64,000 nt of DNA from Arcanobacterium sp. S3PF19. GTDB lineage: Bacteria > Actinomycetota > Actinomycetes > Actinomycetales > Actinomycetaceae. The stretch spans positions 248,001 to 312,000 of the forward strand of contig NZ_JRMX01000014.1 of the NCBI RefSeq assembly GCF_000758825.1. Reading direction: 5' to 3'. The notes under the pieces are model-generated. The model was given only the letters and a program-made list of their open reading frames with translations. It was not told the DNA's origin and did no database searches. Positions 44,308 through 58,712 of the stretch are shown here, piece by piece (position 1 is the stretch's first letter; each line of letters starts with the position of its first letter). The translations under genes were made by a program, and so were the position numbers.

Positions 44308-47300
44308 ATGCTTTTTTCACCCGACTGTGTTTTCTTTACGCGCAGAAAAACAATGGTTTTCTTTTTCGCTTTTCTCTTTGCGCTCAGTTCCTGCTGCGCA
44401 GGCATGGGCAGGGCGTTTGCCTTTGGCGCGGGCACGGCTGCGGATATGCCGGACAATGGGAAATCCGGGGTAAAAATTTCTTCGGATGTACGTGTGGGGC
44501 CGGACGGATTTGCCGACGTGCTCGTTACTTTTGCCGACAGTGCCCCGGACAGACGGATTTCGCAGGCCCGTGCGGAACTTACGCCGAATGCGCCCATGGC
44601 GGCGATCGCTCTGCGTGCCGCCTCACTGAGGGCAGACGCGGCGCAAAAGCAGGCTCTGCAGATTCTTGCGGGCAATCCGGGAGTGAAAAGTTTTGAGCAG
44701 CTGAAAATTGCCAATACGATTAATCTGAAGGCCCGCCCCGACGTGCTTAACGCGTTGGCCCGGCTGGAGCAGGTGCGTTCTGTCAGCCCCAATCGCAGTG
44801 TACATCCGGTTAAGCCCGCAAAAACACGCCGTGCCGCCGTGGGTTCCCCGCGCAGCGCAGAGTTTGACGAATCTGCGGAGGTGGAAGAAAACATAAAGGC
44901 GATCCGCGCAGACAAAGTGTGGGATATGCGAAAAATCGACGGAAAAGGCGTGACCATCGGTCTTATTGACCAGGGTGTGGATTTTTCCCATCCTGCCTTA
45001 AAAACACATTTTCGCGGATATGACCCGAAAACGGGCAATATCGAATTAAAGGGCAATTATCTGGACCTTGTCGGCAGCGGAAATACAGATACGCACGGCA
45101 CTCATGTGGCGGGAATTATGGTCGGTTCCGAGCCGAGAATGCGTGGCAATACCGAAGTGCGGGTAAATCGGATCGGAGTTGCCCCGGGTGCAAAATTTAT
45201 TGCCGTGCGTGCATTCCGCGACGGGGTCGGAGGAAGCAACGCCAATATTATCAAAGCCTGCCGGTGGATGCTCGCTCCGGGAGGCGATCCGGGCAAAGCT
45301 CCCAAAATCATTAATCAAAGCTGGTCCGACGGCACGGACAAACCCGATCCGTGGCTGGAAGAAGTGTCCAAGACTATCCGTGAAGCGGGAATTTTAAATG
45401 TTTTCAGTGCCGGAAACAGCGGTGCGGTAAAAGCCGTGCCCGGTTCGGTGGACAATCCCGGTTCAATGCCCGGTGTGTTAAGCGTAGGTGCCGTAGACAA
45501 CGACGGGCGTCTGGCTGATTTTTCCCGCAGGGGACCGGGCAAATGGCCGGGTGCCGAACTTAAACCGGATTTGACGGCTCCCGGCGTGCATATCCGCTCC
45601 TCACTGCCGGGCGGACGTTACGCTTCCTGGGACGGCACCAGCGGCGCCGCTCCGCACGTGTCCGGCGTGGCTGCTCTGGCGCTGCAGGCCAATCCGAATC
45701 TTTCCGTGGCGCAGCTTGAAGACCTGCTGAAAAAGAATACGCGCGGCGGAACGGATGAAAATTATCCGTCCAAGCCGAATTTTGGCTATGGGTATGGCGT
45801 GACGGATGCTTTGGACACGGTAAATGCGGCATTGCGCGCGGCAGGGAAACTGCCGGAGGCAAAAACGGGAACTTTAAGCGGAAAAGTTTCGGTAAAGGCA
45901 GCTGCGCCCGCCGAAATCAAAGCCGACGTTGATATCCCGGCGCGCGCCTATGTGCGCCGCTCTCTGCCTGTATCCGTTGAGTTGGGCGATTCTGCGGATA
46001 TTAAAACACTTACCCTTGTTTTGCTGCAGGGCGGCACTAAGGCAGCCGAACAGAAAGTTTCGGTAGGAAAAAACGGAAGCGCTTTCTATAAGATCGCAAT
46101 TCCGGGAGATAAAATTACCCGCGCGGGAAATTATCGGCTTTCGGTGCAGGCGCAAACCACCTCCGGCGATACATACACAACGGAAGAAGTGCCCGTAACG
46201 GTAAAAGAATCCGTAAAACCCGGAGAATATTTCACCGATTTTGAGCAGCGGGAGGCCGGAATCGACACAGAAGGCGATTTTGGAATCGGTACGGTAAATC
46301 TTCAGGCCGACCCGAAACCTGCCTCCGGCAGTGAAATTTTGGGTCTGAATCTGAACCGGCTCGGAATGGGAAATGCTCCGCAGTCCACATTCGAGCTGCC
46401 CGCCATAGATCTGACCGGCATAAAAGCCTCGGATAAAGCGGAGCTCGTCTTTGACGAAAATGCTTCCTGGAGCGGAGGCGTGATCGGATTCCAGGCGCTG
46501 GGCGTGCCCAAAGCGCCGGAAGAAAAAGCCCTGGAAGTATTTAATTATCCTACGAAACTGCAGCAAAACGGATGGGTGCAGAGGCGGATCGATCTTTCGC
46601 GGTTTGCCGGAAAAACCATTGATCTGTTTGGGTTCAGCATAGTCGGCGGAGGCGTATCCGGCGAGGGATGGTCTGTGGATAACCTGCGGTTGGAGTTAAA
46701 CGGAAAGACGCTGAAAGCAAACACCGAGCCGGCGCCGCGCAGGATCGGAAAAATGACGGCCGTTTCCGCTCTTTCTTCGGGTCTGAAGCCGGTTTTGGCC
46801 GGAATTTCGATTCCGTCCCTGGGGCTGAAAGCGAAAACGGACGGGAAAACGGGTGTATTTGCTTTTTCGTCTCTCCCCGTGGGAAAGTATGACGTTTATC
46901 TCGGTGCGCAGGGCTTCGTGACGCAGAAACACACGATAGAGGTGAATGCCGATACGGAAGAAAAACTTGACGTTGTGCTGGAGAAAGACGCATCTCTTCC
47001 GGCTCCGCCGCCGTCTTCCGGTTCCGAAGACGGCGCGGGCAGTGTGCCTTCGGAGGGTGAATCGGGAATGCGTGAGATAGGCTACGACAACAATAACCCG
47101 TTGGCGGGCGGAATTATTCACGCAAAAACTGGCAATGCCGTTGCGGTGGACGTAACGGGCGGTGCGGATTGCGAGCTGGGAGCGGTGCGGATTTTCGGCG
47201 CGGGAAACAATCCGTATCTTCGTTCCGGGAAGATGGAATTGCGGATAAAAGCGGTAAATTCTCTCGGACGTATCATAGATGTGGCAAAGCCGCGGATGAT

Positions 47301-49536
47301 CACGGTGAAAACCGGTGTTTGGAATCAGATTGACCTTTCGGGGGAGAAGATTCGCGGCAACCGGAAGCTCTATGTGACGGTGAAGCAGATTTTGCCCGGC
47401 GGACGCACCCCTGCCGTGGCTTTGGATGGCTCTGTGCGCCCCTCAACTTCCGCAGTATCCCATGCGTATCTGTTTAACGGCGAATTTGTGCCGTTGAAAT
47501 CCACGGGGTATTTCGGAATGCCCATGATCAGGGCCGTGTTTAAGACGAATAATCCGCAGGATAAGGCACTTTTCCCCGCTGCGCCGAAATTTGCTCCGCA
47601 GATTGGCACCGCTCCCGTGCCCGACCCCCTGATTTCCGACGAGCAGCAGCCGAAAGACCTGACCGATGTGGGCGAATGGCAGATCAGCCCCTCGCGGGGA
47701 GTGATCACCAAATGGTATAAACTCGGTGAGTTTTTGGCCAAACCCGCCAATGAGCAGATCTTGGAGGTGCCCGGGGAAATCGGAGGCGTGAAGATAACGG
47801 GTATCGGCGCCGGGGTGTTTAAGAATCCGGCGCGCGGGGTAAAGAATGTGGCCGAAGTCCGGATCCCGGAGGGCGTCACTGAGATTAATGCCGAAGCGTT
47901 TTTCAATCTCGGCGTAGGAAAAATAAGCTTCCCGCAGAGTCTGGAAAGAATCTATGCCGGCGCTTTCCAAAACGCAAAAGTGAAAGAACTTGTTCTTCCC
48001 GGAAATCTGCGCTACATAGGCGAGGATGCATTTGCCTACAGCAGAAAAATCGAAAAGCTCGACATTCCCGACAGTGTGGAATTTATCGGCCGTTCGGCTT
48101 TCGACGAAGCCGAGGCGCTGACTTTCCTGAAACTTCCCCGGAATCCGAAATTCACGGAAATCAGCGCGCTGACTTTCCACAGCGCGGGAAAACTTACGGA
48201 AGTGGAGATTCCCGCTTCCGTGCGGATGATCAAAGCCGGTGCTTTTGATAAAGGATTTTCCTTCGACGAAAGCGGAATTACCCGTTTGGTCCTGCACGAG
48301 GGACTGGGTTCCATTCAGGACAATGCGTTCAAGGGGAATAAGATCAGCGTGCTGCGGATTCCGGATTCGGTGGAGGAAATTGCGGATTCGGCTTTTGAAA
48401 ACAATAAAATCAATTCTTTGGTGCTCGGCACGTCTTTGCGCACGATCGGAAGCAGTGCCTTTGAAACAAACGAATTGAAAGAAGTTGTGCTGCCGGATCG
48501 GACCGAATCGGTGGGCAGAAGGGCTTTTGCCGACAATCCGCTGAACCTGGTGCGTTTTGGGCGCAGTCTCATGCCCTACGACAAATCGAAGAAAAAGGGA
48601 ATCAGAGAGTATGCCCTTCCCGATACTTTGGGCAAATTGGAGATATACCGCGCGGAGCAGGTGAATGATAAATTCAAAGAATCTTTGGCCTCCGACAGCG
48701 GGCTGAAGACGCAAATTACAGTTCTGGACGGCAAAGTGAAAACTTTCACCGATGCCGAAACGGGAATTAAAGCGGAAATCGGATCTTCGAATATTGCAGA
48801 AGGCGTAAAGCCGAAAATCTCTGTGCTGGCGCAAGACGGTGAGCAGGTAAAGTCGCTCATCGCAGGGCTCGCCCCGGACGGCCGGCGTATTTCCGTTCTT
48901 CGCGCGGTATCGGTGCAAATGGTTGACGCAAATGGGAAAAAGGCGGACTGGCAGGGAACGCTGCGGGTATTCTTACCCGTTTCGCAGGCGGGTGCCCGGA
49001 TTTATACCCGGCCTTTGGGGAGCGGTGACCGGTGGACGCTGCGTTCTTCCGCGGAGCAAAATGCGGATGCTGTTTCGGACCGTTCCGCAGCAGATCCTTC
49101 TGCGCCGGCCGGCGGCGTGAGTGTGGAACTCTCCGCGGCTTCCGAGATTGCTGCCGTGCACGAAGATGCATCCGCGCCGGATTTGCCGGGTGAGATTGAT
49201 TATGGATACAGGCTGCCGTTTATACCCCCGTTTAGTGTGCCGTTGCCGCCGGATGTGAACCCCGGCGGGGAGAGCGGGCATTCCTCCGATTCGGTTACGC
49301 CCGGAGCGGGATCAGTTTCCCCTGCGGGCACTCCCGGCGAAAGCTTCGCGCATACGCCAAAGGGCGGATCGGATAAAGTTTTGCTTTCCGCCGGGAATCG
49401 TGCGCGCCGTCTTTCCCGAACGGGAGCCGCACTGCCGCTGACGTGTCTGTATGCGTTTTCTGTTCTTCTCGGTGCCTCTGTCTGCGTGCGCAGAAGGGAG
49501 AAAATGCGGCGGCGGCGTATAGTCGGTAGCATATAG
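44308..49536 (+). CDS. Giant cell-surface subtilisin-like protease with BspA-type leucine-rich repeats
   Basis: A 1742-residue exported protein. Signal peptide about 1-40; prodomain about 50-185; S8 catalytic domain about 195-512 with Asp221 (GLIDQG), His263 (THGTHVAG), Asn370 (SAGNSG) and Ser445 (DGTSGAAP). A beta-sandwich and an FDFEQ-type adhesion domain follow (about 520-810). Next come a CarboxypepD_reg-like domain (about 815-895), a Ser/Pro linker, another beta domain, and about ten BspA/LRR_5 repeats (about 1120-1425). The C-terminus has LSRTG (1702-1706), a hydrophobic helix and a basic tail: a sorting signal with Ser where LPxTG has Pro or LAxTG has Ala. Likely a wall-anchored adhesin-protease acting on host proteins. 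Confidence 0.92.
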   Translation: MLFSPDCVFFTRRKTMVFFFAFLFALSSCCAGMGRAFAFGAGTAADMPDNGKSGVKISSDVRVGPDGFADVLVTFADSAPDRRISQARAELTPNAPMAAIALRAASLRADAAQKQALQILAGNPGVKSFEQLKIANTINLKARPDVLNALARLEQVRSVSPNRSVHPVKPAKTRRAAVGSPRSAEFDESAEVEENIKAIRADKVWDMRKIDGKGVTIGLIDQGVDFSHPALKTHFRGYDPKTGNIELKGNYLDLVGSGNTDTHGTHVAGIMVGSEPRMRGNTEVRVNRIGVAPGAKFIAVRAFRDGVGGSNANIIKACRWMLAPGGDPGKAPKIINQSWSDGTDKPDPWLEEVSKTIREAGILNVFSAGNSGAVKAVPGSVDNPGSMPGVLSVGAVDNDGRLADFSRRGPGKWPGAELKPDLTAPGVHIRSSLPGGRYASWDGTSGAAPHVSGVAALALQANPNLSVAQLEDLLKKNTRGGTDENYPSKPNFGYGYGVTDALDTVNAALRAAGKLPEAKTGTLSGKVSVKAAAPAEIKADVDIPARAYVRRSLPVSVELGDSADIKTLTLVLLQGGTKAAEQKVSVGKNGSAFYKIAIPGDKITRAGNYRLSVQAQTTSGDTYTTEEVPVTVKESVKPGEYFTDFEQREAGIDTEGDFGIGTVNLQADPKPASGSEILGLNLNRLGMGNAPQSTFELPAIDLTGIKASDKAELVFDENASWSGGVIGFQALGVPKAPEEKALEVFNYPTKLQQNGWVQRRIDLSRFAGKTIDLFGFSIVGGGVSGEGWSVDNLRLELNGKTLKANTEPAPRRIGKMTAVSALSSGLKPVLAGISIPSLGLKAKTDGKTGVFAFSSLPVGKYDVYLGAQGFVTQKHTIEVNADTEEKLDVVLEKDASLPAPPPSSGSEDGAGSVPSEGESGMREIGYDNNNPLAGGIIHAKTGNAVAVDVTGGADCELGAVRIFGAGNNPYLRSGKMELRIKAVNSLGRIIDVAKPRMITVKTGVWNQIDLSGEKIRGNRKLYVTVKQILPGGRTPAVALDGSVRPSTSAVSHAYLFNGEFVPLKSTGYFGMPMIRAVFKTNNPQDKALFPAAPKFAPQIGTAPVPDPLISDEQQPKDLTDVGEWQISPSRGVITKWYKLGEFLAKPANEQILEVPGEIGGVKITGIGAGVFKNPARGVKNVAEVRIPEGVTEINAEAFFNLGVGKISFPQSLERIYAGAFQNAKVKELVLPGNLRYIGEDAFAYSRKIEKLDIPDSVEFIGRSAFDEAEALTFLKLPRNPKFTEISALTFHSAGKLTEVEIPASVRMIKAGAFDKGFSFDESGITRLVLHEGLGSIQDNAFKGNKISVLRIPDSVEEIADSAFENNKINSLVLGTSLRTIGSSAFETNELKEVVLPDRTESVGRRAFADNPLNLVRFGRSLMPYDKSKKKGIREYALPDTLGKLEIYRAEQVNDKFKESLASDSGLKTQITVLDGKVKTFTDAETGIKAEIGSSNIAEGVKPKISVLAQDGEQVKSLIAGLAPDGRRISVLRAVSVQMVDANGKKADWQGTLRVFLPVSQAGARIYTRPLGSGDRWTLRSSAEQNADAVSDRSAADPSAPAGGVSVELSAASEIAAVHEDASAPDLPGEIDYGYRLPFIPPFSVPLPPDVNPGGESGHSSDSVTPGAGSVSPAGTPGESFAHTPKGGSDKVLLSAGNRARRLSRTGAALPLTCLYAFSVLLGASVCVRRREKMRRRRIVGSI

Positions 49537-49652
49537 ATGGGTGCGCGGCGGCGCTGCCGTTTTCGCACGCCGCCGCGCAGCGCGAAGCGTACGGATTTTC
49601 CCGTGCGCTGCCGCGCCGTATATGCCGGCGGGACGAATCCGAAGGGGAAATG

Positions 49653-50732
49653 ATGGCGGAGAAAACGAAAGCAGGCTGCCGGCAGGTAACGATGAAAGAC
49701 GTGGCCCGCGCAGCGGGGGTTTCCGTTTCCTCGGTGTCTTTGGCGCTGCGCAACGATTCGCGTATCTCTCCTTCCGTGCAGGAACGTGTACGCCGCGAAG
49801 CGAACCGTCTGGGGTACCGCTTTAATCTTTCGGGGGCGCTTCTTTCGCAGTCTCGCCCAAAGCTGCTCGGAGTAGTGGCGCATTTCGATCAGGAGCTGCA
49901 CACGGCCTATGTGCGTGAAATAGCGGATCTTGCTTCCGGAAGCGGGTACCGGATCATCGCGGAAAACGCCGCGCTGTACGACGATCCCGCAACGGCGTTG
50001 GAGAAGCTGGCGCAGCTGCGGGTGGCGAACGTGATTGCGATCAATCCGCCCGTATACAACACGGACGAGGATATTCTGCCGACTGTGGTGATTGCCCAGG
50101 ATACGGATTTGCCGCAGGCCGATCTGGTGCGCAGCGACAATATGCAGGGCGTGACCGAGCTTGCTTCCCATCTCAGGCAGCTGGGACACCGCTGTGTGTA
50201 TTATCTGGCCGGTCCGCAGGGCGTTTCCGGCGATGCGCGGCTGGAAATGCTGGCTTCCGTGCTGAAGCGGGAAGATATTGAAATGTATCCGTGGCAGGCA
50301 GGCAATACGCTTTCCGCCGGTTTTGCCGCTATGCAGGATCTGTTGGTGCGGCTGTGGCAGCGCGGGCGGAACGCGGAAGCCGAAAATTTTTTCCCCGCCC
50401 GTGTGGGGGCCCTGGGAAAAACAACGGCGATTGTCTGTTACAACGACCAGTGTGCAATGGGTGCGTATCTGGCGCTGCTGAAAGCGGGGATTGACGTGCC
50501 TGCGGATGTTTCTTTGGTCGGCTTCGACAATTCCGCGGCAGGTGCGAGCCCTGCGTTTTCTCTGACCACGATTGACCGCTGTCCGCGGAAAGTGGCGGAA
50601 GCTGCTTTCTCTTTGGCCTGCGCGCGGCGGGAAGGGCGGGAAACGGAGATCCGGCGGGTGACAGTGCCCACACATCTGGTTGTGCGCTCTTCGACCGCGC
50701 AGGCGAACTTTTTACGCCGCGTCGGAAAGTGA
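49653..50732 (+). CDS. LacI-family repressor of the inositol-phosphodiester operon
   Basis: A 359-residue LacI-type regulator. The helix-turn-helix and hinge VTMKDVARAAGVSVSSVSLALR lead into a periplasmic-binding-protein-like sensor domain with SLVGFDNSAAGASPAFSLTTI near the end. I chose the second of two adjacent ATGs because AAGGGG is spaced correctly for it. Two matching palindromes lie directly downstream, one overlapping the promoter of the next genes. It therefore very probably represses the MFS/PLC/IMPase operon; the inducer could be inositol or one of its phosphates (inference). Confidence 0.9.
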   Translation: MAEKTKAGCRQVTMKDVARAAGVSVSSVSLALRNDSRISPSVQERVRREANRLGYRFNLSGALLSQSRPKLLGVVAHFDQELHTAYVREIADLASGSGYRIIAENAALYDDPATALEKLAQLRVANVIAINPPVYNTDEDILPTVVIAQDTDLPQADLVRSDNMQGVTELASHLRQLGHRCVYYLAGPQGVSGDARLEMLASVLKREDIEMYPWQAGNTLSAGFAAMQDLLVRLWQRGRNAEAENFFPARVGALGKTTAIVCYNDQCAMGAYLALLKAGIDVPADVSLVGFDNSAAGASPAFSLTTIDRCPRKVAEAAFSLACARREGRETEIRRVTVPTHLVVRSSTAQANFLRRVGK

Positions 50733-50734
50733 CG

Positions 50735-50750
50735 ATTCAAACGTTTGAAT
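50735..50750. promoter_or_regulatory. Upstream LacI operator (O1)
   Basis: ATTCAAACGTTTGAAT is a perfect 16-bp palindrome with the central CG typical of LacI-family operators. It begins 2 bp after the repressor stop codon. Its centre is 121 bp from the promoter operator, compatible with looping. Confidence 0.8.
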
Positions 50751-50847
50751 AAAAAAGTGAATACCGTAAATTCGCGTAAAATAGCCATCAAAAAAACTAT
50801 TACAAAAATGTAAAAATTAAATTTTAAGATAAAAAAGGAAAAATCTA

Positions 50848-50876
50848 TTGACATCGTTCAAACGATTGAATAGATT
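50848..50876 (+). promoter_or_regulatory. Promoter with embedded LacI operator (O2)
   Basis: TTGACA (50848-50853), exactly 17 bases, TAGATT (50871-50876). The spacer contains TTCAAACGATTGAA (50857-50870), one base off a perfect copy of the upstream palindrome. Repressor binding would block RNA polymerase. The remaining 175 bp to the MFS start is an untranslated leader with no gene. Confidence 0.85.
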
Positions 50877-51051
50877 TGAGGTAACGGAAGATATCCTGAC
50901 CGGCAGGGTATCGGTCCGCTTCGGCGAACCGGAAAACGTCCGGCGGCGTCACCGGCGCGCAAAGGAGTGCGCACACGCAGAATAAGAGGACGCCCGGGAT
51001 TCCGTTTTCTCCGGTGCGGATATGTAACGTGTATAGTAAGGGGGCTATGCG

Positions 51052-52422
51052 ATGCGAAACGCAGTTAAAAATCTTGGCTTTACGGCCACAAGCTTTATTT
51101 CCTTAATTTTGATTACCGTAAACGCTCAGCTGATCTACGCATTTTGGGATATCAGAAACACAATCCCGAAAGATTTTCCCGCCGCGATGGGCGTATCGGA
51201 CGGTCAGGCCGGCTCGCTTTATTCCATGCAGGGTCTGGTGATTATTCTGGGGACCATTGCTTTGGGCTGGATCGGCGACCGGTTCAGGATCAGAACCATC
51301 ATGCTGATCTCTTCCCTCGGCGCGGGCGGCATTTCCCTGTTTATCACTGTCGGATCGCCGCATCTTTCCTTCGCGACGCTGCTTATCTGCTTCTTCCTGA
51401 TGCTGCTGTTCACCGAAGTTCTCTTCAAGCCTGCCAACTTCAAGGCGGTCAGCCTGTCCACCGGTCCGGACCATCAGGGAACGGCATTCGGATTCTTTGA
51501 ATTCGGCAGGGGAATGCTTGCGTTTTTGGTCTCGCTGCTGTGGACGGGAATGCTGGCGGGCGGCGTTGCGCCGAAGACAATCATGTACACTTCCTCGATT
51601 ATCGTGCTGGTAGCCGGTATTTTGGTGTTTTTCACGGTGCCGAAGGAAGAAAAGGTAGGCGACGAAACCACCGCCTCCAGCACGCTGGAAGCCATCAGGG
51701 GTGTGGCGCACGTGGCCAAACTGCCGATTGTGTGGATTGCCGGAATCAACGTGTTCTGCATTTACGGCGCTTTCGTTGCGGCGGGAACGTATTTTGCCCG
51801 CTATCTTCAGGCCGGGTACGGCACCTCGGCCGTGGCTGCGGCAACTTTCGCAACGGCGGTGATCGGGCTGCGGATGCTGCCCCTGGTGTCCACGATTCTG
51901 GTGGAGAAGGTATTTAAGTCAACGGTGAAATTTATGCGTACGATGGAAGTTCTGCTGGCAGTGCTGCTGATCGCCATCGCCTGCATTTTCTTCACCAATC
52001 ACCCGGCGGTCAGCGAGTATCCCGCCGGTCAGGTTCCCGAGGATCTGATTTCCCAGGCCACGCTGTGGACGCTGGTAGTGCTGATGCTGTTGGCGTCGGC
52101 AACCACATTTATGATCCGCGGAGTTTACTATGCGCCGATCGGAGAATTCGGAATTGCGAAGAAACAGGCCTCCTCGGCAATGTCGTTCGCAATCACAATC
52201 GGTTATATTCCGGCGCTGCTGGCTCCGATCGTGCTCGGCAATCTGATCACGCCCTCCGTCAAGGATGCCAACGGGAATGTGGTCACCGAAATTCTTACCT
52301 CCACCGAGATTCTGGGCGCGGCTTTCATCGGCCTGGCTGTTCTCAGTCTGGTGGCGGCGGTTATGTCGCATGTGATGGTCGGAATGAAACGGCGTCACAG
52401 CGAAGCGAAAGCCGATTTTTAG
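51052..52422 (+). CDS. MFS transporter, proposed carrier of a phosphorylated polyol
   Basis: A 456-residue, twelve-helix major facilitator. The loop 2-3 signature is GWIGDRFRIRTIML, and charged or aromatic residues line the helices (FWDIRNTIPKDFPAAMG, YAPIGEFGIAKKQ). The conserved YAPIGE segment and overall layout remind me of organophosphate:phosphate antiporters and of the wider sugar-phosphate branch, but this is an impression only. AAGGGGG precedes the ATG. It leads the LacI-controlled operon and is followed 9 bp later by a cytosolic PI-PLC-like gene. Import of glycerophosphoinositol, like yeast Git1 (also MFS), is proposed by context. Confidence 0.85.
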   Translation: MRNAVKNLGFTATSFISLILITVNAQLIYAFWDIRNTIPKDFPAAMGVSDGQAGSLYSMQGLVIILGTIALGWIGDRFRIRTIMLISSLGAGGISLFITVGSPHLSFATLLICFFLMLLFTEVLFKPANFKAVSLSTGPDHQGTAFGFFEFGRGMLAFLVSLLWTGMLAGGVAPKTIMYTSSIIVLVAGILVFFTVPKEEKVGDETTASSTLEAIRGVAHVAKLPIVWIAGINVFCIYGAFVAAGTYFARYLQAGYGTSAVAAATFATAVIGLRMLPLVSTILVEKVFKSTVKFMRTMEVLLAVLLIAIACIFFTNHPAVSEYPAGQVPEDLISQATLWTLVVLMLLASATTFMIRGVYYAPIGEFGIAKKQASSAMSFAITIGYIPALLAPIVLGNLITPSVKDANGNVVTEILTSTEILGAAFIGLAVLSLVAAVMSHVMVGMKRRHSEAKADF

Positions 52423-52431
52423 GAGAGAGTT

Positions 52432-53247
52432 ATGAGTGTCGGTTGGATAAAAAACATTTCGGACGAAACACTGCTCAGGGATCTGCTGATCCCCGGCACG
52501 CACGACACAATGACCGGTCCGTGCCAAAAACGCTATTACAAGACGCAGACGCTGTCTTTGTCGGAGCAGCTTGAAGCCGGTGTGCGGTATCTGGATATCC
52601 GGCTTACCCGGGATCTGTATGCCGCCCACCGCGAATGGAAAAGCGATATCGGCGGCGAAACGATACTGGAAACGCTGAAAGATTTTCTGAACCGCAATCC
52701 GGAAGAATTTGTGTTGGTGCGTTTTCAAAACGCGAACGAGAAAAAGGACGATTTCGACAGATACTGCCCCGCGCTGAAGGGACTGGTAGGCAGGTATTCC
52801 GATCTGTTTTTCGAGTTTTCTTCCGCGCAGAAGGAGAAGATCTCGGAGCTCACGGTGGGTCGGCTGCGCGGGAAAGTGCTCGCTTTTGAGTGCTCGCCGC
52901 ACGAATATGAGGCCACCCGGGCCGGCGCCCTGCACTGGGCATATCCGTGGCACGACTGCCCCGGACTGGCGATTCAGGATCTGTGGGACGGACCGGCCGT
53001 GGAAGAAAAAATTGCCGCGGTGACCAACGCCCTCGACTGCCCCGCATGGAAAGACAGACTGGTGCTGAACCACATCAGTGCGACAAACGGAGAGCCCGGA
53101 TACCCGGATGCGTACGCCGCTGTTTTGAACGAAACAGTATTACGGGGCGTGCGGGATTTGGCCGCGGGAAGTGGTAGATTAGCCGGTGTGCTGATCTTCG
53201 ATTTCGTTACCGAAGAAATAGCAGAGAAAATTATTAAGAAGGGTTAG
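52432..53247 (+). CDS. Cytosolic PI-specific phospholipase C-type phosphodiesterase
   Basis: A 271-residue PI-PLC X-domain protein. Catalytic residues of bacterial PI-PLC are all visible: His24-Asp25 in IPGTHDTM, Asp55 and Arg57 in GVRYLDIRL, His66 in AAHREW, and Asp257 in VLIFDFV. Unlike classical secreted PI-PLC, the N-terminus (MSVGWIKNISDETLL) is not a signal peptide and no membrane helix is seen, so the enzyme should act in the cytosol. With the transporter before it and an inositol monophosphatase 10 bp after it, the likely substrate is imported glycerophosphoinositol, giving cyclic inositol phosphate or inositol-1-phosphate plus glycerol. That step is inference. Confidence 0.88.
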   Translation: MSVGWIKNISDETLLRDLLIPGTHDTMTGPCQKRYYKTQTLSLSEQLEAGVRYLDIRLTRDLYAAHREWKSDIGGETILETLKDFLNRNPEEFVLVRFQNANEKKDDFDRYCPALKGLVGRYSDLFFEFSSAQKEKISELTVGRLRGKVLAFECSPHEYEATRAGALHWAYPWHDCPGLAIQDLWDGPAVEEKIAAVTNALDCPAWKDRLVLNHISATNGEPGYPDAYAAVLNETVLRGVRDLAAGSGRLAGVLIFDFVTEEIAEKIIKKG

Positions 53248-53257
53248 TGTTGCTGTA

Positions 53258-54040
53258 ATGAATGTTTCCCAATTGAGTTTGGCGCAGCTGCGGGATTTGG
53301 CGCTGCCGTTTTTGGAGCGCGCCCGGGAGATTGCCTTGGGCACCGGAAAGTTGGAAGTCAGCGTAAAATCTGACCGCAATGATTTGGTGACGCAGGTAGA
53401 TCGGGAGATTGAAAATTTTCTTGCCGGGAAACTGGAGCAGGCGACCGGTTATCCGATGCTGGGCGAGGAAGGGCATACGCGTGATTCCTTTGCCGGCCGG
53501 GTATGGATACTGGATCCGATCGACGGAACCATGAACTATGTGGCAACCCACCGGGATTATGCCATTTCGCTGGCATTGGCCGAAGACGGTGTTCCCGTGC
53601 TGGGTATCGTGGTTGATGTTGTGCGCGGAATCGTGTATTCCGCCATTCGGGGGCAGGGCGCGTTCTGCGACGGAAAGCCTCTGGGGCGCGTACCTGAGGA
53701 CGTGGGATACCGGAATGCGGTTTTGATCACGGATCTGAAAGAAATCTGTGCGCTTCCCCGTCTGCGTCAGGCGCTTACGGAATCCAGGGGCCACCGCCGT
53801 TACGGGTCGGCCGCGCTCGAACTGACGGAGGTTGCCTGCTCCAGGGCCGGAGCATTTGTCCATCTGTCTGTTTCGCCGTGGGATATTGCGGCAGCTTCGC
53901 TGATCTGCGGCGAAGTCGGTGTGCGTGTGACGCGTATGGACGGCACACATCTGAATGTGTGCGAAAAGGGGTCAATTTTGGCAGGCTGGCCGCAGGTGCA
54001 CGAAGAGCTGTTGGAAAAGCTGATCCGTGCCCCGCGCTGA
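53258..54040 (+). CDS. Inositol monophosphatase family protein
   Basis: A Mg-dependent phosphatase of 260 residues. Metal-binding motifs are present: GEEG in LGEEGHTRD, WILDPIDGTMNYV, and the C-terminal SPWDIAAASLI. In the operon context it would release free inositol from inositol-1-phosphate made by the preceding PI-PLC-like enzyme. IMPase-family members also act on histidinol phosphate, PAP or fructose bisphosphate, so the substrate is inferred. It is last in the operon, closed by strong stem-loops. Confidence 0.92.
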   Translation: MNVSQLSLAQLRDLALPFLERAREIALGTGKLEVSVKSDRNDLVTQVDREIENFLAGKLEQATGYPMLGEEGHTRDSFAGRVWILDPIDGTMNYVATHRDYAISLALAEDGVPVLGIVVDVVRGIVYSAIRGQGAFCDGKPLGRVPEDVGYRNAVLITDLKEICALPRLRQALTESRGHRRYGSAALELTEVACSRAGAFVHLSVSPWDIAAASLICGEVGVRVTRMDGTHLNVCEKGSILAGWPQVHEELLEKLIRAPR

Positions 54041-54097: not shown

Positions 54098-54133
54098 GGA
54101 GGTGCCCGTTCCCAATTGGGAACGGGCACCTCC
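54098..54133. terminator. 36-bp perfect palindrome, bidirectional terminator
   Basis: Arms of 18 bp meet at CCCAATTGGG with no spacer, between convergent genes. A T-rich tail follows on the plus strand (GTTTTCATTTTG). Confidence 0.82.
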
Positions 54134-54173: not shown

Positions 54174-54923
54174 TCAGGCACAAACAGCGTGAATTGCCTC
54201 CAGTACCGCCCGCGCCGAAGCGAGATGGCGGCGGCGGTAATCTTCGTCATTTGCCCAGAAGTTGTTTTTGCGCGTGACGTGTACCACAAGGCTGTTGGCA
54301 ACGGGAATGCGGTAGAGCGATCCCAGGATAAACAGGATGGCTGTTTCCATCTCGCAGTTTAGGATGCCCCGGTCCCGGTAATATCCCATTCCGCCGCCGC
54401 GCGTAAAGAGTTTCCCGGTTTCGGTCTGCGGATCGCGGAACTGCCCGGCGTAATATCCTTCGGACGTGAGCCCGATTCCGATATGCGTGACCATGTCGTG
54501 CTGTTTCATCTGCGTATTGATTTCGCCCAGAAGAATCGGATCCGCTACGGCCGGGAAGGAATCTTCGACGTAGCTCGACATCAGTCCGGCAGAGCGGGCC
54601 ATGGCGGAATTCAGGATAATGTCTCCGACGTTTATTCCGTCCTGCCACGCGCCGCAGCCGCCGCAGCGCACAATCCGTTTTGCACCGTTTTCGATCAGTT
54701 CGGTGACGGCGATTTCGGTGGAACCGGATCCGATTCCCGTGGAGCAGACAGATACGGGGATACCCCTATAGCTGCCGCCGATAACCTGAAATTCACGCGA
54801 ATCGGTGATTTGGTGCACATTTTCCAGCAGTGTGCCGATTAAGGCCACGCGGCCCGGATCACCGACGATCAGTGTTGCTTCCCCGAGCATTCCGGGAAGC
54901 AGATTTTTCAGGTGAATACTCAT
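54174..54923 (-). CDS. Nucleoside phosphorylase (uridine/purine nucleoside phosphorylase family)
   Basis: A 249-residue PNP/UDP-type phosphorylase splitting nucleosides with phosphate into a base and ribose-1-phosphate. Motifs: LIVGDPGRVALIG with the phosphate arginine, VCSTGIGSGSTEIAVTELI, RCGGCGAWQDGINVGDIIL, and NCEMETAILFILG for ribose binding. It resembles uridine phosphorylase more than hexameric PNP, but base preference is uncertain. Its ATG overlaps the stop of the MFS gene (ATGA), so uptake and cleavage of a nucleoside are coupled. Confidence 0.88.
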   Translation of the reverse strand: MSIHLKNLLPGMLGEATLIVGDPGRVALIGTLLENVHQITDSREFQVIGGSYRGIPVSVCSTGIGSGSTEIAVTELIENGAKRIVRCGGCGAWQDGINVGDIILNSAMARSAGLMSSYVEDSFPAVADPILLGEINTQMKQHDMVTHIGIGLTSEGYYAGQFRDPQTETGKLFTRGGGMGYYRDRGILNCEMETAILFILGSLYRIPVANSLVVHVTRKNNFWANDEDYRRRHLASARAVLEAIHAVCA

Positions 54924-56155
54924 TTTTCCTCTGCTCCTTCGTTTGTGTGTTTCTTCACGTTCAGAGTGAGAACCGTGAGGAAAGAGATTACATACAGTAC
55001 CGAGAGGAAGCCCATTGCCACGGTGAGCGAATAGTTGTCGAGGAAGAATCCGATTGCCACGGCGGAGAAACCTCCCACGGCACGTCCGATATTGAAAATA
55101 ACGTTGTTTGCCGTTGCGCGGATATATGTCGGATAAAGATTTCCGACGATTGCCCCGTATCCGGCGTTCATTCCGTTGGCGAAGAATCCGACGATTGCCC
55201 CGCCGATCAGAATCGCGCCTGCAGAGGCGGAGAATGAGTAAAGGAATACGGCCACGGCCGAGGCAAGAAGGAATAAACCGTAGGCAAATTTCGGTCCGAT
55301 TTTATCCATGAGCTGCCCGAATACGAACATACCCAAAACCATGCCGATGATTGTGGCAATCATCCATGTCGAAGAGCCTTTCACGGAAACGTGCGCCTGC
55401 TCCTGGATAATCGAGGGAAGCCAGTTCATCAGTCCGAAATATCCCGCTACCTGCACGGTTGCCATCAGCGTCAGGCGCAGCGTGGTTGGCGTGCGTCCGG
55501 CGCGGAAGAGCTCGGCCACGGAAATTTTTTCGTTTTTGTTGCGCCCGGCTTCCGCGCGCGCTTTCTTCCAGTGCTCCGATTCGGGCAGGCAGAACCAGGC
55601 CCAGATGGCGAAGAATACGGGCAGTCCGCCGAAGATAAACAGTGCGCGCCATCCTGCCGCGGGTACGATGAGCGCGGCGGCGACGGCGGCAATAATTGCG
55701 CCGAACTGTCCGGCAATCGTAACCCACGATGTTACCCGTCCGCGCCGCCCGGCACTGAATGCGTCGGCCGTAAGGCTCATAACCACGCCGTACATACCCC
55801 CTCCGCCGACGCCGACGAGAAACCGCAGCACGTACACCGCACCGATAGTGTCCACGAAGCCGACAGCGGCCGTGGCGAGAGAGAAGATGGCCACGGTAAG
55901 GGCAAGATTCTTCGCCCTTCCGAATCGGTCGGCAAGCGTGCCGAACACGATCCCTCCCGCCAGCATTCCCAGATTGGTGACTGTGGAAATGAATCCGCCC
56001 GCCGTTTTGTTGATCCCAAAATCAACGAGCATCGAGGCAAGCACGAAAGACAGAAGCATTGTGCTTGTGCTCTGCAGTCCCAGGCCGCCCAATGCGGCTC
56101 CCAGTACTTTTTTCTGATAACCCGTAAACCCGCGTTCGGTCTGGGTAGTTTTCAT
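54920..56155 (-). CDS. MFS transporter, putative nucleoside carrier
   Basis: A 411-residue, twelve-helix major facilitator similar to the aromatic acid/sialic acid symporter group. The loop 2-3 motif is GTLADRFGRAKNLALT, with GVGGGGMYGVVMSLTADAF and LYPTYIRATANNVIFNIGRAVGG as further landmarks. It overlaps the downstream nucleoside phosphorylase by 4 bases, so a nucleoside is the likely cargo, although the transporter family itself does not prove this. It is divergent from the iclR-type gene across a 213-bp region with tandem repeats. Confidence 0.85.
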   Translation of the reverse strand: MKTTQTERGFTGYQKKVLGAALGGLGLQSTSTMLLSFVLASMLVDFGINKTAGGFISTVTNLGMLAGGIVFGTLADRFGRAKNLALTVAIFSLATAAVGFVDTIGAVYVLRFLVGVGGGGMYGVVMSLTADAFSAGRRGRVTSWVTIAGQFGAIIAAVAAALIVPAAGWRALFIFGGLPVFFAIWAWFCLPESEHWKKARAEAGRNKNEKISVAELFRAGRTPTTLRLTLMATVQVAGYFGLMNWLPSIIQEQAHVSVKGSSTWMIATIIGMVLGMFVFGQLMDKIGPKFAYGLFLLASAVAVFLYSFSASAGAILIGGAIVGFFANGMNAGYGAIVGNLYPTYIRATANNVIFNIGRAVGGFSAVAIGFFLDNYSLTVAMGFLSVLYVISFLTVLTLNVKKHTNEGAEEK

Positions 56156-56221
56156 TGTTCGCCTTTCCTGCCGTTTAATCCGGTCTCAGCTCCGAAACCG
56201 CTTTTAAATTATAATTTCCTG

Positions 56222-56273
56222 TTGACTATTTCTTTCCGCTGAGCGAAAATAGTTTCCGTACAACGAAGTATAG
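56222..56273. promoter_or_regulatory. Tandem candidate IclR operators over a divergent promoter
   Basis: Two back-to-back units with the pattern TTTCCG-N5-CGAA...ATAG lie at 56233-56252 and 56253-56273. The first sits within a promoter-like TTGACT (56222-56227), 17 bases, GAAAAT. The repeat period of about 20 bp puts both on one face of the helix. They lie between the MFS-phosphorylase pair and the IclR-ABC genes, so they are probable sites of that regulator. Confidence 0.6.
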
Positions 56274-56368
56274 CGAGCTTGGAGTGGTATGTCTAGAGGG
56301 AAATACGGGAGCGAAATTAGGTATTTTTATAGAGTGGCAATTCCGGCGCGCACAGAACGGAGCAGACA

Positions 56369-57109
56369 GTGGAACTCGTAAAACGCACACTCGCAATTCT
56401 TCGCACTATCGCCGAAGGGGAAAAATTCTTAACGCTTTCGGAAATTTCCCTGCGGACAAAAATTCCCGTGTCCAGCATCAGCCGCATTATTTCCACACTC
56501 ACGGAAGAACAGTTCGTGGTGCGGGGCAGCGACAGACGCTACGGAATCGGTCCGGAAGCCATCGGGCTGTGCCGCGGCGGGCGTTTTTTGGACGACGCTT
56601 CCCGCGATATCCTCTCCAACCTCTGCGAAGAATACGAAGAAACCGTATTTTTAAGCCGTTTCGTGGGAAACCAGGTGCGCTGTCTTGCGCTTTGGCACGG
56701 CACGCGTCCCGTAACACTGGCCGTGCGCACCGGTGATATGCTGCCGATTCATGCTTCGGCCGCGGCGCGCGTAATCCTCGCTGAATATCCCCTTTCCCGG
56801 GCGCAGGAAGTGATTGCCCGCAGCGAACGGATAAAATTCACCCCCAAAACACTGACATCCGAAAAAGACATTCTCCGGCACCTGAAAACGGTGCACGAAC
56901 GCGGATACGACATCTGCTACAACGAGCTGAACGCCGGTGTTCTGGTGGTTTCCGCGCCGATCATCGGGCCGCACAATACGGTCACAACCTCGGTTTCAAT
57001 GGCGGGGGCGGTAATGGGGGACGCAGAGGCAAAAGCCGGTGCCGAACACTGGCTGCCTCCCGTGCAGGAGGCGGCAAAACGGATATCCGGACTGTGGACG
57101 CACGAATAA
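56369..57109 (+). CDS. IclR-family transcriptional regulator
   Basis: A 246-residue IclR-type regulator. The N-terminal winged helix is KRTLAILRTIAEGEKFLTLS then EISLRTKIPVSSISRIISTL, and the effector domain ends in DICYNELNAGVLVVSAPI. The start is a GTG with ACGGAG 6 bases upstream. Placed between a nucleoside MFS/phosphorylase pair and a four-gene ABC importer, it probably controls one or both. Ligands of this family are usually small aromatic or carboxylic compounds or intermediates; none can be named here. Confidence 0.9.
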   Translation: MELVKRTLAILRTIAEGEKFLTLSEISLRTKIPVSSISRIISTLTEEQFVVRGSDRRYGIGPEAIGLCRGGRFLDDASRDILSNLCEEYEETVFLSRFVGNQVRCLALWHGTRPVTLAVRTGDMLPIHASAAARVILAEYPLSRAQEVIARSERIKFTPKTLTSEKDILRHLKTVHERGYDICYNELNAGVLVVSAPIIGPHNTVTTSVSMAGAVMGDAEAKAGAEHWLPPVQEAAKRISGLWTHE

Positions 57110-57142
57110 CAGGCATCCGAAAAAGCGTACGGAGGGAGAAAG

Positions 57143-57931
57143 TTGAACGATACATCCGAAAACATCACAGTAAAACTGCGGCACGTGAATAAGCGTTACC
57201 GTTCCCGACGCGGCGCAGCGGAAACAACCGCGCTTCTCGATGTAAACCTGGAAGTCAGGCGGGGCGAAATCATGTCGGTGATCGGCCCTTCCGGCTGCGG
57301 AAAATCGACAATGCTGCGGATCATCGCCGGTCTGGACACGGACTTTACGGGAGAAGTGCAGCGGTTTTGGAAAACGGAAAGAAAGAAAGGCCTGCCCGAT
57401 ACGGGATTTGTGTTTCAGTCCCCGACGCTGCTCCCGTGGCGTTCGGTGCGGAAAAATATCGCCCTGGGACTGGAGAAAGCCGGTCTTTCGCGCGCCGAGA
57501 CGGATGCCCGGATAGGGGAAATGCTGGAAATGACGGGTCTTGCGGATTTCGCCGATTCCTATCCGAATCAGCTCTCCGGCGGAATGCAGCAGCGGGTGCA
57601 GATCGCCCGGGCGCTCGCATACGATCCCCCGGTGCTCCTGATGGACGAGCCTTTCGGCGCGCTCGATTACATTACGCGCGAACAGCTGCAGGAAGATCTG
57701 CTGAAAATATGGCAAAGCACGGAAAAGACCATCATACTTGTGACACACGCTACCGATGAGGCGGCGTATCTCTCGAAGCGCGTATGCGTTCTCTCCTCGC
57801 GCCCGGGGACGGTAAAAGCGGTTCACACCGTGCCGATATCCTATCCGCGCACGATAGACGTAAAAGCCGGCGCGGACTTTGCGCAGTTTCAGAATCTTTT
57901 GCGGGAGGAGCTCAAAGATGAACCGAAATAA
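57143..57931 (+). CDS. ABC transporter ATPase (NitT/TauT family), system 2
   Basis: A 262-residue ATPase with Walker A GPSGCGKST, Q-loop FVFQSPTLLPWRS, signature LSGGMQQRVQIARAL, Walker B VLLMDEPFGALD and H-loop VTHATDEAA. It starts with a TTG after GGAGGGAG. It is first of four genes encoding an importer with two different permeases (57918, 59737) and one lipoprotein (58687), 33 bp downstream of the IclR gene. Confidence 0.93.
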   Translation: MNDTSENITVKLRHVNKRYRSRRGAAETTALLDVNLEVRRGEIMSVIGPSGCGKSTMLRIIAGLDTDFTGEVQRFWKTERKKGLPDTGFVFQSPTLLPWRSVRKNIALGLEKAGLSRAETDARIGEMLEMTGLADFADSYPNQLSGGMQQRVQIARALAYDPPVLLMDEPFGALDYITREQLQEDLLKIWQSTEKTIILVTHATDEAAYLSKRVCVLSSRPGTVKAVHTVPISYPRTIDVKAGADFAQFQNLLREELKDEPK

Positions 57932-58712
57932 GCCGTTTCGGTTTGGCATTTCCGCCCTGAAATGGTTTGCCTACGTGCTCTGCCTGCTTCTGCTGTGGCA
58001 GCTGTATGTGTCTGCGGCACGGATTCCGCGTTTTATCCTTCCCCCGCCGACGGAAGTGCTGAAAGAATTGGATGTGCTGCTGAAAACGGGCGAACTGTAT
58101 GCGCATTTCCTTTACACCGCGCGGAATATGGTCTGCGGTTTCGGTATCGGGCTGATTTTGGGTGCGCTGTTGGGAACGCTGTGCAGCAAAAGCGCCTTTG
58201 TGTCGGCAGCTCTTTCCCCTTTTCTTGTGTTTTTGCAGGCGATGCCGAAGATCGCTCTTGCGCCGCTGTTTGTGCTGTGGTTTGGGCTCGGTCTGAAAAG
58301 TCAGCTGATTCTGATTGTGTCGCTGGCGTTCTTTCCCGTTCTTTCCGGGACTGTGGCCGGTTTGCGCAGCCGTAATCCTGATTTCGACCATCTGCGCCGA
58401 ATTTTCGTGATGGGTAAATTGGAGTTCTTTTACAAAGTGGAGATTCCGGCGGCCGTTCCCCTCTTTTTCGCCGGCGTGCGCCTTGCCCTGCTGGATGCGC
58501 TTACGGGCGCGGTTTTGGCGGAATTTATCGCTTCCGAAAAGGGTTTGGGATATCTGCTTGTGCTCGGTAATTCGACTTACAAAACTTCGGTCCTGCTGGC
58601 GGCGGTGGCCGCGATCCTGTGTTTCGGGGTGCTGGTCTACCTGCTTATTCAGTGCGCCGAAAACTATTTTCTGCGCTGGAGGGATAATGGACGGAATGAA
58701 ACGGTATTTTAA
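57918..58712 (+). CDS. ABC transporter permease A, system 2
   Basis: A 264-residue membrane subunit with about six hydrophobic segments and AMPKIALAPLFVLWFGLG before the coupling loop (PDFDHLRRIFVMGKLEFFYKVEIP). The ATG at 57918 overlaps the ATPase gene by 14 bases and has GGAGGAG upstream. The close match of its central segment to permease B suggests duplication and a heterodimeric channel. Confidence 0.9.
   Translation: MNRNKPFRFGISALKWFAYVLCLLLLWQLYVSAARIPRFILPPPTEVLKELDVLLKTGELYAHFLYTARNMVCGFGIGLILGALLGTLCSKSAFVSAALSPFLVFLQAMPKIALAPLFVLWFGLGLKSQLILIVSLAFFPVLSGTVAGLRSRNPDFDHLRRIFVMGKLEFFYKVEIPAAVPLFFAGVRLALLDALTGAVLAEFIASEKGLGYLLVLGNSTYKTSVLLAAVAAILCFGVLVYLLIQCAENYFLRWRDNGRNETVF

Follow-up and report, generated by a model that had tools for sequence, protein, structure and literature searches.

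The window, i.e., the whole 64,000-nt stretch of contig NZ_JRMX01000014.1 analyzed here, harbors four consecutive + strand genes. The first (49650..50732) encodes a LacI-family regulator of 360 aa (Pfam LacI E 1.6e-12, Peripla_BP_3 E 1.8e-24) and is followed by genes for an MFS carrier of 456 aa (51052..52422, MFS_1 E 3.1e-19), a PI-PLC-like enzyme of 271 aa (52432..53247, hereafter PLC), and an inositol monophosphatase (IMPase) family phosphatase of 260 aa (53258..54040, Inositol_P E 2e-49). The LacI, MFS_1, and Inositol_P domains all scored above the Pfam cut-offs. The MFS and PLC genes are separated by 9 bp and the PLC and IMPase genes by 10 bp; the ORF coordinates reproduce the order and spacing described in the sequence-only reading. 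An intrinsic terminator on the + strand (54098..54133), with a 16-pair stem containing 12 GC pairs and a T-rich tail, lies 3' of the IMPase gene. Uridine phosphorylase-like and aromatic-acid-type MFS genes on the opposite strand, followed by an IclR regulator and ABC-transporter-like genes, occupy window positions 54174-58712 and were placed outside the operon because of their strand and the terminator. Directly 5' of the operon (window positions 44308-49536) is a gene for a 1742-aa surface protein, in which a subtilisin-like protease region, leucine-rich-repeat-like blocks, and a C-terminal membrane segment were recognized by eye.

LacI-type palindromic operators were found at the promoter of the operon. 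In the whole 1.49 Mb genome, the pattern TTCAAACGNTTGAA has only two mismatch-free occurrences, both of which fall in the intergenic region that separates lacI from the MFS gene: operator 1 (50736..50749) is the perfect palindrome TTCAAACGTTTGAA, and operator 2 (50857..50870) reads TTCAAACGATTGAA. Operator 2 is contained in the 17-nt spacer of a sigma-70-type promoter on the + strand (TTGACA-17 nt-TAGATT, 50848..50876, 10 of 12 consensus matches). The promoter search found 3 sites where 2.2 were expected, and the promoter is therefore supported mainly by its overlap with the operator. Among 19 related loci, 12 have the operator motif with 0-1 mismatch 5' of the operon, including loci in other genera, and shuffled upstream sequences seldom matched it equally well. 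Of the 19 other loci, 15 have a LacI gene (38-47% identical) close to the operon, and the loci lacking a good operator site include three without a nearby LacI gene (in genomes G063, G012, and G044). The LacI control proposed from the gene order alone is thus backed by a conserved predicted operator in the promoter spacer, from which LacI would block transcription until an inducer arrives.

The PLC protein scored below every Pfam and NCBIfam threshold; the Pfam PI-PLC-X search was silent in the controls too and is hence uninformative. Among PDB sequences, the protein matched the Listeria PI-PLC (E 8e-32), and a profile of its relatives matched the same enzyme with E 3e-54. The AlphaFold2 model (pLDDT 89.9) was aligned to the Listeria structure 1aod over 264 residues with a Z of 36.0 and an rmsd of 1.8 Å (31% identity in the structural alignment), which predicts a PI-PLC barrel fold closest to the Listeria and Bacillus enzymes. 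All six residues named in the sequence-only reading (His24, Asp25, Asp55, Arg57, His66, and Asp257) are present, and His24, Asp25, Arg57, His66, and Asp257 align with the Listeria catalytic residues. Asp55, Arg57, His66, and Asp257 are invariant over 19 relatives; His24 and Asp25 are nearly so, the sole exception being a 5'-truncated reading. One relative (G031, locus L041) has its PLC split into two pieces after approximately residue 170; the assembly is 82% complete, and either gene decay or a sequencing error would account for the split.

The secretion signal typical of described bacterial PI-PLCs is absent from the window PLC, as the sequence-only reading had noted. The PLC start codon lies 9 bp 3' of the MFS stop codon, so that this gene cannot accommodate a signal peptide, and a cytosolic location can be soundly predicted. 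The PLC N-termini of the relatives are at most 17 residues longer, and their best start usually lies at, near, or overlapping the upstream stop codon. As the secretion signal is missing, the enzyme is a variant rather than a classical secreted PI-PLC. Several positions of the inositol pocket also differ from those of the Bacillus enzyme (Tyr200 to Trp185 and Lys115 to Gln99, paired by sequence alignment), and the substrate could therefore differ.

Searches of PDB sequences with the MFS protein and with an MFS profile gave no match. The MFS model was structurally nearest to SPNS2 (Z 34-35), followed closely by G6PT (33.9) and DgoT (33.0), with GlpT also listed; as this fold is common to many MFS families and the ranking is flat, it says little about the substrate. 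For the phosphatase, the Inositol_P score was 169 bits against a cut-off of 27, and the metal-binding motifs of the IMPase family (GEE, DPIDGTMNY, and WD) were invariant in eight operon IMPases. The window protein fell below the NCBIfam equivalog cut-offs for IMPase and HisN. At E<=1e-15, its genome yielded no other match.

The distribution of the operon was determined across 213 genomes of the family, with the genes at related loci chosen by a homology- and GC3-weighted ORF choice. PLC was detected in 20 genomes from 6 of 36 genera, with 45-53% identity between the window protein and its relatives, and an MFS gene adjoins it in all 20, a conservation that excludes a chance arrangement. The adjoining MFS protein is 63-80% identical to that of the window in 17 other loci and 32% identical in two, where the order is PLC then MFS. 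Among 396 genomes sampled over the order, full-length PLC was found in only two, both already known as carriers, and a close MFS relative only there; genome G347 gave one further PLC match, which was weak and partial. A scan of genome contigs with PLC returned a single distant relative, from a Eubacteriales bin; the N-terminus of this protein is hydrophobic and signal-like. Plasmid searches returned only distant MFS (23-27%) and PI-PLC (26-33%) relatives, and the annotated regions that were inspected contained no comparable operon.

Co-occurrence across the family, proposed as a check in the sequence-only reading, held for the MFS-PLC pair, but IMPase is within the operon in only 9 of the 20 carriers. 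Eight others, all from genus g3, have in its place a kinase gene of the PfkB family between the MFS and PLC genes (L030, L031, L033, L034, L036, L037, L038, and L041), and seven of these kinase genomes searched for IMPase yielded none above 54% identity. The remaining three (G063, G050, and G015) carry an IMPase gene elsewhere in the genome, 60-67% identical. The best PDB match of the partner kinase was TM0415 of Thermotoga maritima (E down to 1e-35), which is reported to be a PPi-dependent kinase that phosphorylates myo-inositol and carries an RXGRGD motif (PMC5931981). All six aligned kinases contain RTGRGD, which matches this signature. In the one kinase compared residue by residue, the acceptor residues D11, N78, Q141, and R145 are kept; of the five donor signature residues of TM0415 (K171, F221, R229, R232, and M266; PMC5931981), four are kept and the phenylalanine is replaced by leucine. 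The study of TM0415 cautions that its true acceptor may be another compound of the inositol pathway (PMC5931981). The g3 kinase might run backwards, converting inositol phosphate and phosphate into inositol and pyrophosphate and thereby keeping the energy of the phosphodiester. We consider this rather unlikely, though such a reaction would account for the finding that none of the tested genomes yielded both the operon-type IMPase and the kinase.

A second tie to inositol is catabolic. In G063, the MFS-PLC pair lies inside an iol cluster, flanked by iolG-iolE and by an alcohol dehydrogenase gene, with iolC, an aldolase gene, iolB, iolD, and iolA on the other side. In the window genome, too, a relative of this alcohol dehydrogenase gene adjoins the iol cluster. 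That cluster, on another contig, encodes IolG (374 bits, NCBIfam cut-off 355), IolC (377, cut-off 300), IolB (269, cut-off 205), IolD (855, cut-off 715), and an aldolase similar to Cgl0159. Its IolE-like protein fell short of the IolE cut-off. IolD was found in 19 of 20 carriers (G012 has the operon and lacks IolD), as compared with 86 of 193 other genomes (Fisher p 7e-6). With labels shuffled within genera, the p value was ~0.06, and part of the excess is therefore attributable to shared ancestry. The link to inositol supposed in the sequence-only reading is thus supported by the kinase as alternative partner, the iol linkage in G063, and the co-occurrence with IolD.

The genes for phosphatidylinositol (PI) synthesis were also surveyed. 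PIP synthase scored above the cut-off in the window genome and in 16 of the 19 other carriers; the three others (G126, G143, and G174) retain a complete operon, including IMPase. Inositol-1-phosphate synthase (INO1) was searched with TIGR03450, since PF07994 missed the actinobacterial enzyme (the C. glutamicum control was silent). No actinobacterial INO1 match was obtained in the window genome, which has PIP synthase and could therefore also feed external inositol into PI. INO1 was found in 6 of 20 carriers and 77 of 193 other genomes (p 0.47). INO1 loss as the driver was rejected, as carriers are not poorer in INO1.

We propose, with a probability of about 60%, that this is an inducible operon for the use of a water-soluble inositol-1-phosphodiester, most likely glycerophosphoinositol. 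The MFS protein would import the phosphodiester, and the cytosolic PLC, judging from its fold and residues, would cut it by a His/His/Asp/Arg mechanism, releasing glycerol and yielding inositol 1,2-cyclic phosphate, inositol 1-phosphate, or both. We know of no IMPase that opens inositol cyclic phosphate, and PLC itself or another enzyme must then perform the second step. IMPase would free myo-inositol, which would enter the iol pathway encoded elsewhere in the same genome. The operon may also serve as an inositol source for PI, given that the window genome has PIP synthase and no detected inositol-1-phosphate synthase. Our best guess for the substrate is glycerophosphoinositol, the simplest soluble compound needing a carrier, a PLC-type cut, and an IMPase; it is released by mammalian cells, and a yeast transporter for it is known (PMC3725514). 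The substrate, its origin from host lipid, and the direction of transport are presumed. The locus is a real, conserved, and regulated module with a predicted cytosolic PI-PLC, probably for an inositol phosphodiester, and the route first proposed is plausible and strengthened. The sequence-only reading did not include the iol cluster as an outlet in the same genome, the IMPase/kinase swap, or the operator and terminator.

The imported molecule could instead be lysophosphatidylinositol, carried by a Spinster-type lysolipid MFS protein, with PLC releasing monoacylglycerol and IMPase handling the inositol phosphate. The SPNS2 structures at the top of the MFS model matches agree with such a carrier, but their Z values are nearly tied with those of many families. 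An alpha/beta-hydrolase-type gene lies just 5' of the operon in G174, G143, and G011, which represent two lineages (L027:5965-6891, L032:1547-2503, and L040:6966-7835; the Pfam basis is from G143), and if a lysolipid were imported, these genes could cleave its acyl groups. However, neither the window nor the ORF lists for the remaining genomes showed a hydrolase gene of this type immediately next to the operon, and PLC is without the 6-residue insertion found after THDTM in the Listeria enzyme. We regard lysolipid import as unlikely. An inositol-free phosphodiester, or a glycosylated inositol such as deacylated phosphatidylinositol mannoside, would fit the altered pocket. It would also fit the distant MFS relative found in a LacI-MFS-metallo-beta-lactamase-fold arrangement (see below), which suggests that PI-PLC is not an obligate partner across the wider carrier family. 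An IMPase or inositol-kinase partner in every lineage, together with the iol linkage, speaks against these substrates and makes them the least probable of the alternatives considered.

Two further explanations relate the operon to PI of the cell itself. PLC might turn over PI or its mannosides at the inner membrane face, with the MFS protein moving a product. PI should be available in most carriers, as shown by the distribution of PIP synthase, but the three carriers without PIP synthase above the cut-off make this turnover unlikely, and the dedicated LacI operator and the patchy presence (20/213) fit nutrient use better than housekeeping. A marginally better chance, still a slim one, is given to the same uptake and cleavage supplying inositol for PI synthesis in inositol auxotrophs rather than for carbon catabolism. 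The window genome has PIP synthase, and INO1 was not found in it or, overall, in 14 of 20 carriers; yet carriers do not lack INO1 more often than the other genomes do, the same three carriers have no PIP synthase above the cut-off, IolD is nearly universal among carriers, and one operon lies inside an iol cluster. Catabolism is the better common denominator than PI supply.

The known bacterial PI-PLCs are secreted enzymes that attack membranes and act as virulence factors. The window enzyme shares the full-length fold (Z 36 to 1aod) and the catalytic His/Asp/Arg set with the secreted metal-independent enzymes of Listeria, Bacillus, and S. aureus. It differs from them in its predicted cytosolic location, the presence of carrier and inositol-enzyme genes in its operon, the missing insertion after THDTM, the Trp in place of Tyr200, and its proposed substrate, which would be imported and soluble. 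In yeast, the MFS carrier Git1 takes up intact glycerophosphoinositol, which is then cleaved inside the cell. The proposed route resembles the Git1 route in this logic, and the cleaving enzyme would be a PI-PLC here and is a glycerophosphodiesterase there. With the bacterial iol pathway (IolG, E, C, B, D, and A), which is linked to the pair in G063 and present in the window genome, the route would have its end product in common. The iol systems described so far begin, to our knowledge, at free inositol, whereas the window operon would add a phosphodiester entry branch. The partner kinases of the eight genomes share RXGRGD with TM0415 where aligned, but take the place of IMPase in an operon with PLC and a carrier, while the T. 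maritima gene belongs to TM0411-TM0416 (PMC5931981).

Literature searches, whose open-access coverage was incomplete, returned no description of this route. A cytosolic PI-PLC for nutrient use would widen the role of the family, and the route would provide bacteria with access to a metabolite released by eukaryotic cells. It would further offer an unnamed subgroup of MFS proteins a concrete function that can be tested, and would place PPi-dependent inositol kinases, whose natural substrate was left open (PMC5931981), in a physiological context.

A distant relative of the MFS protein (E ~1e-56) was also observed in three genomes from another family of the order (L061, L062, and L063 in G275, G214, and G519). 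Its gene is followed by one for a metallo-beta-lactamase-fold hydrolase with weak RNase Z/PhnP similarity, and in L061 a LacI-type gene lies 5'. As the metallo-beta-lactamase-fold superfamily includes phosphodiesterases, this neighbor mildly favors phosphodiester substrates, and the arrangement is possibly a sister module for another phosphodiester.
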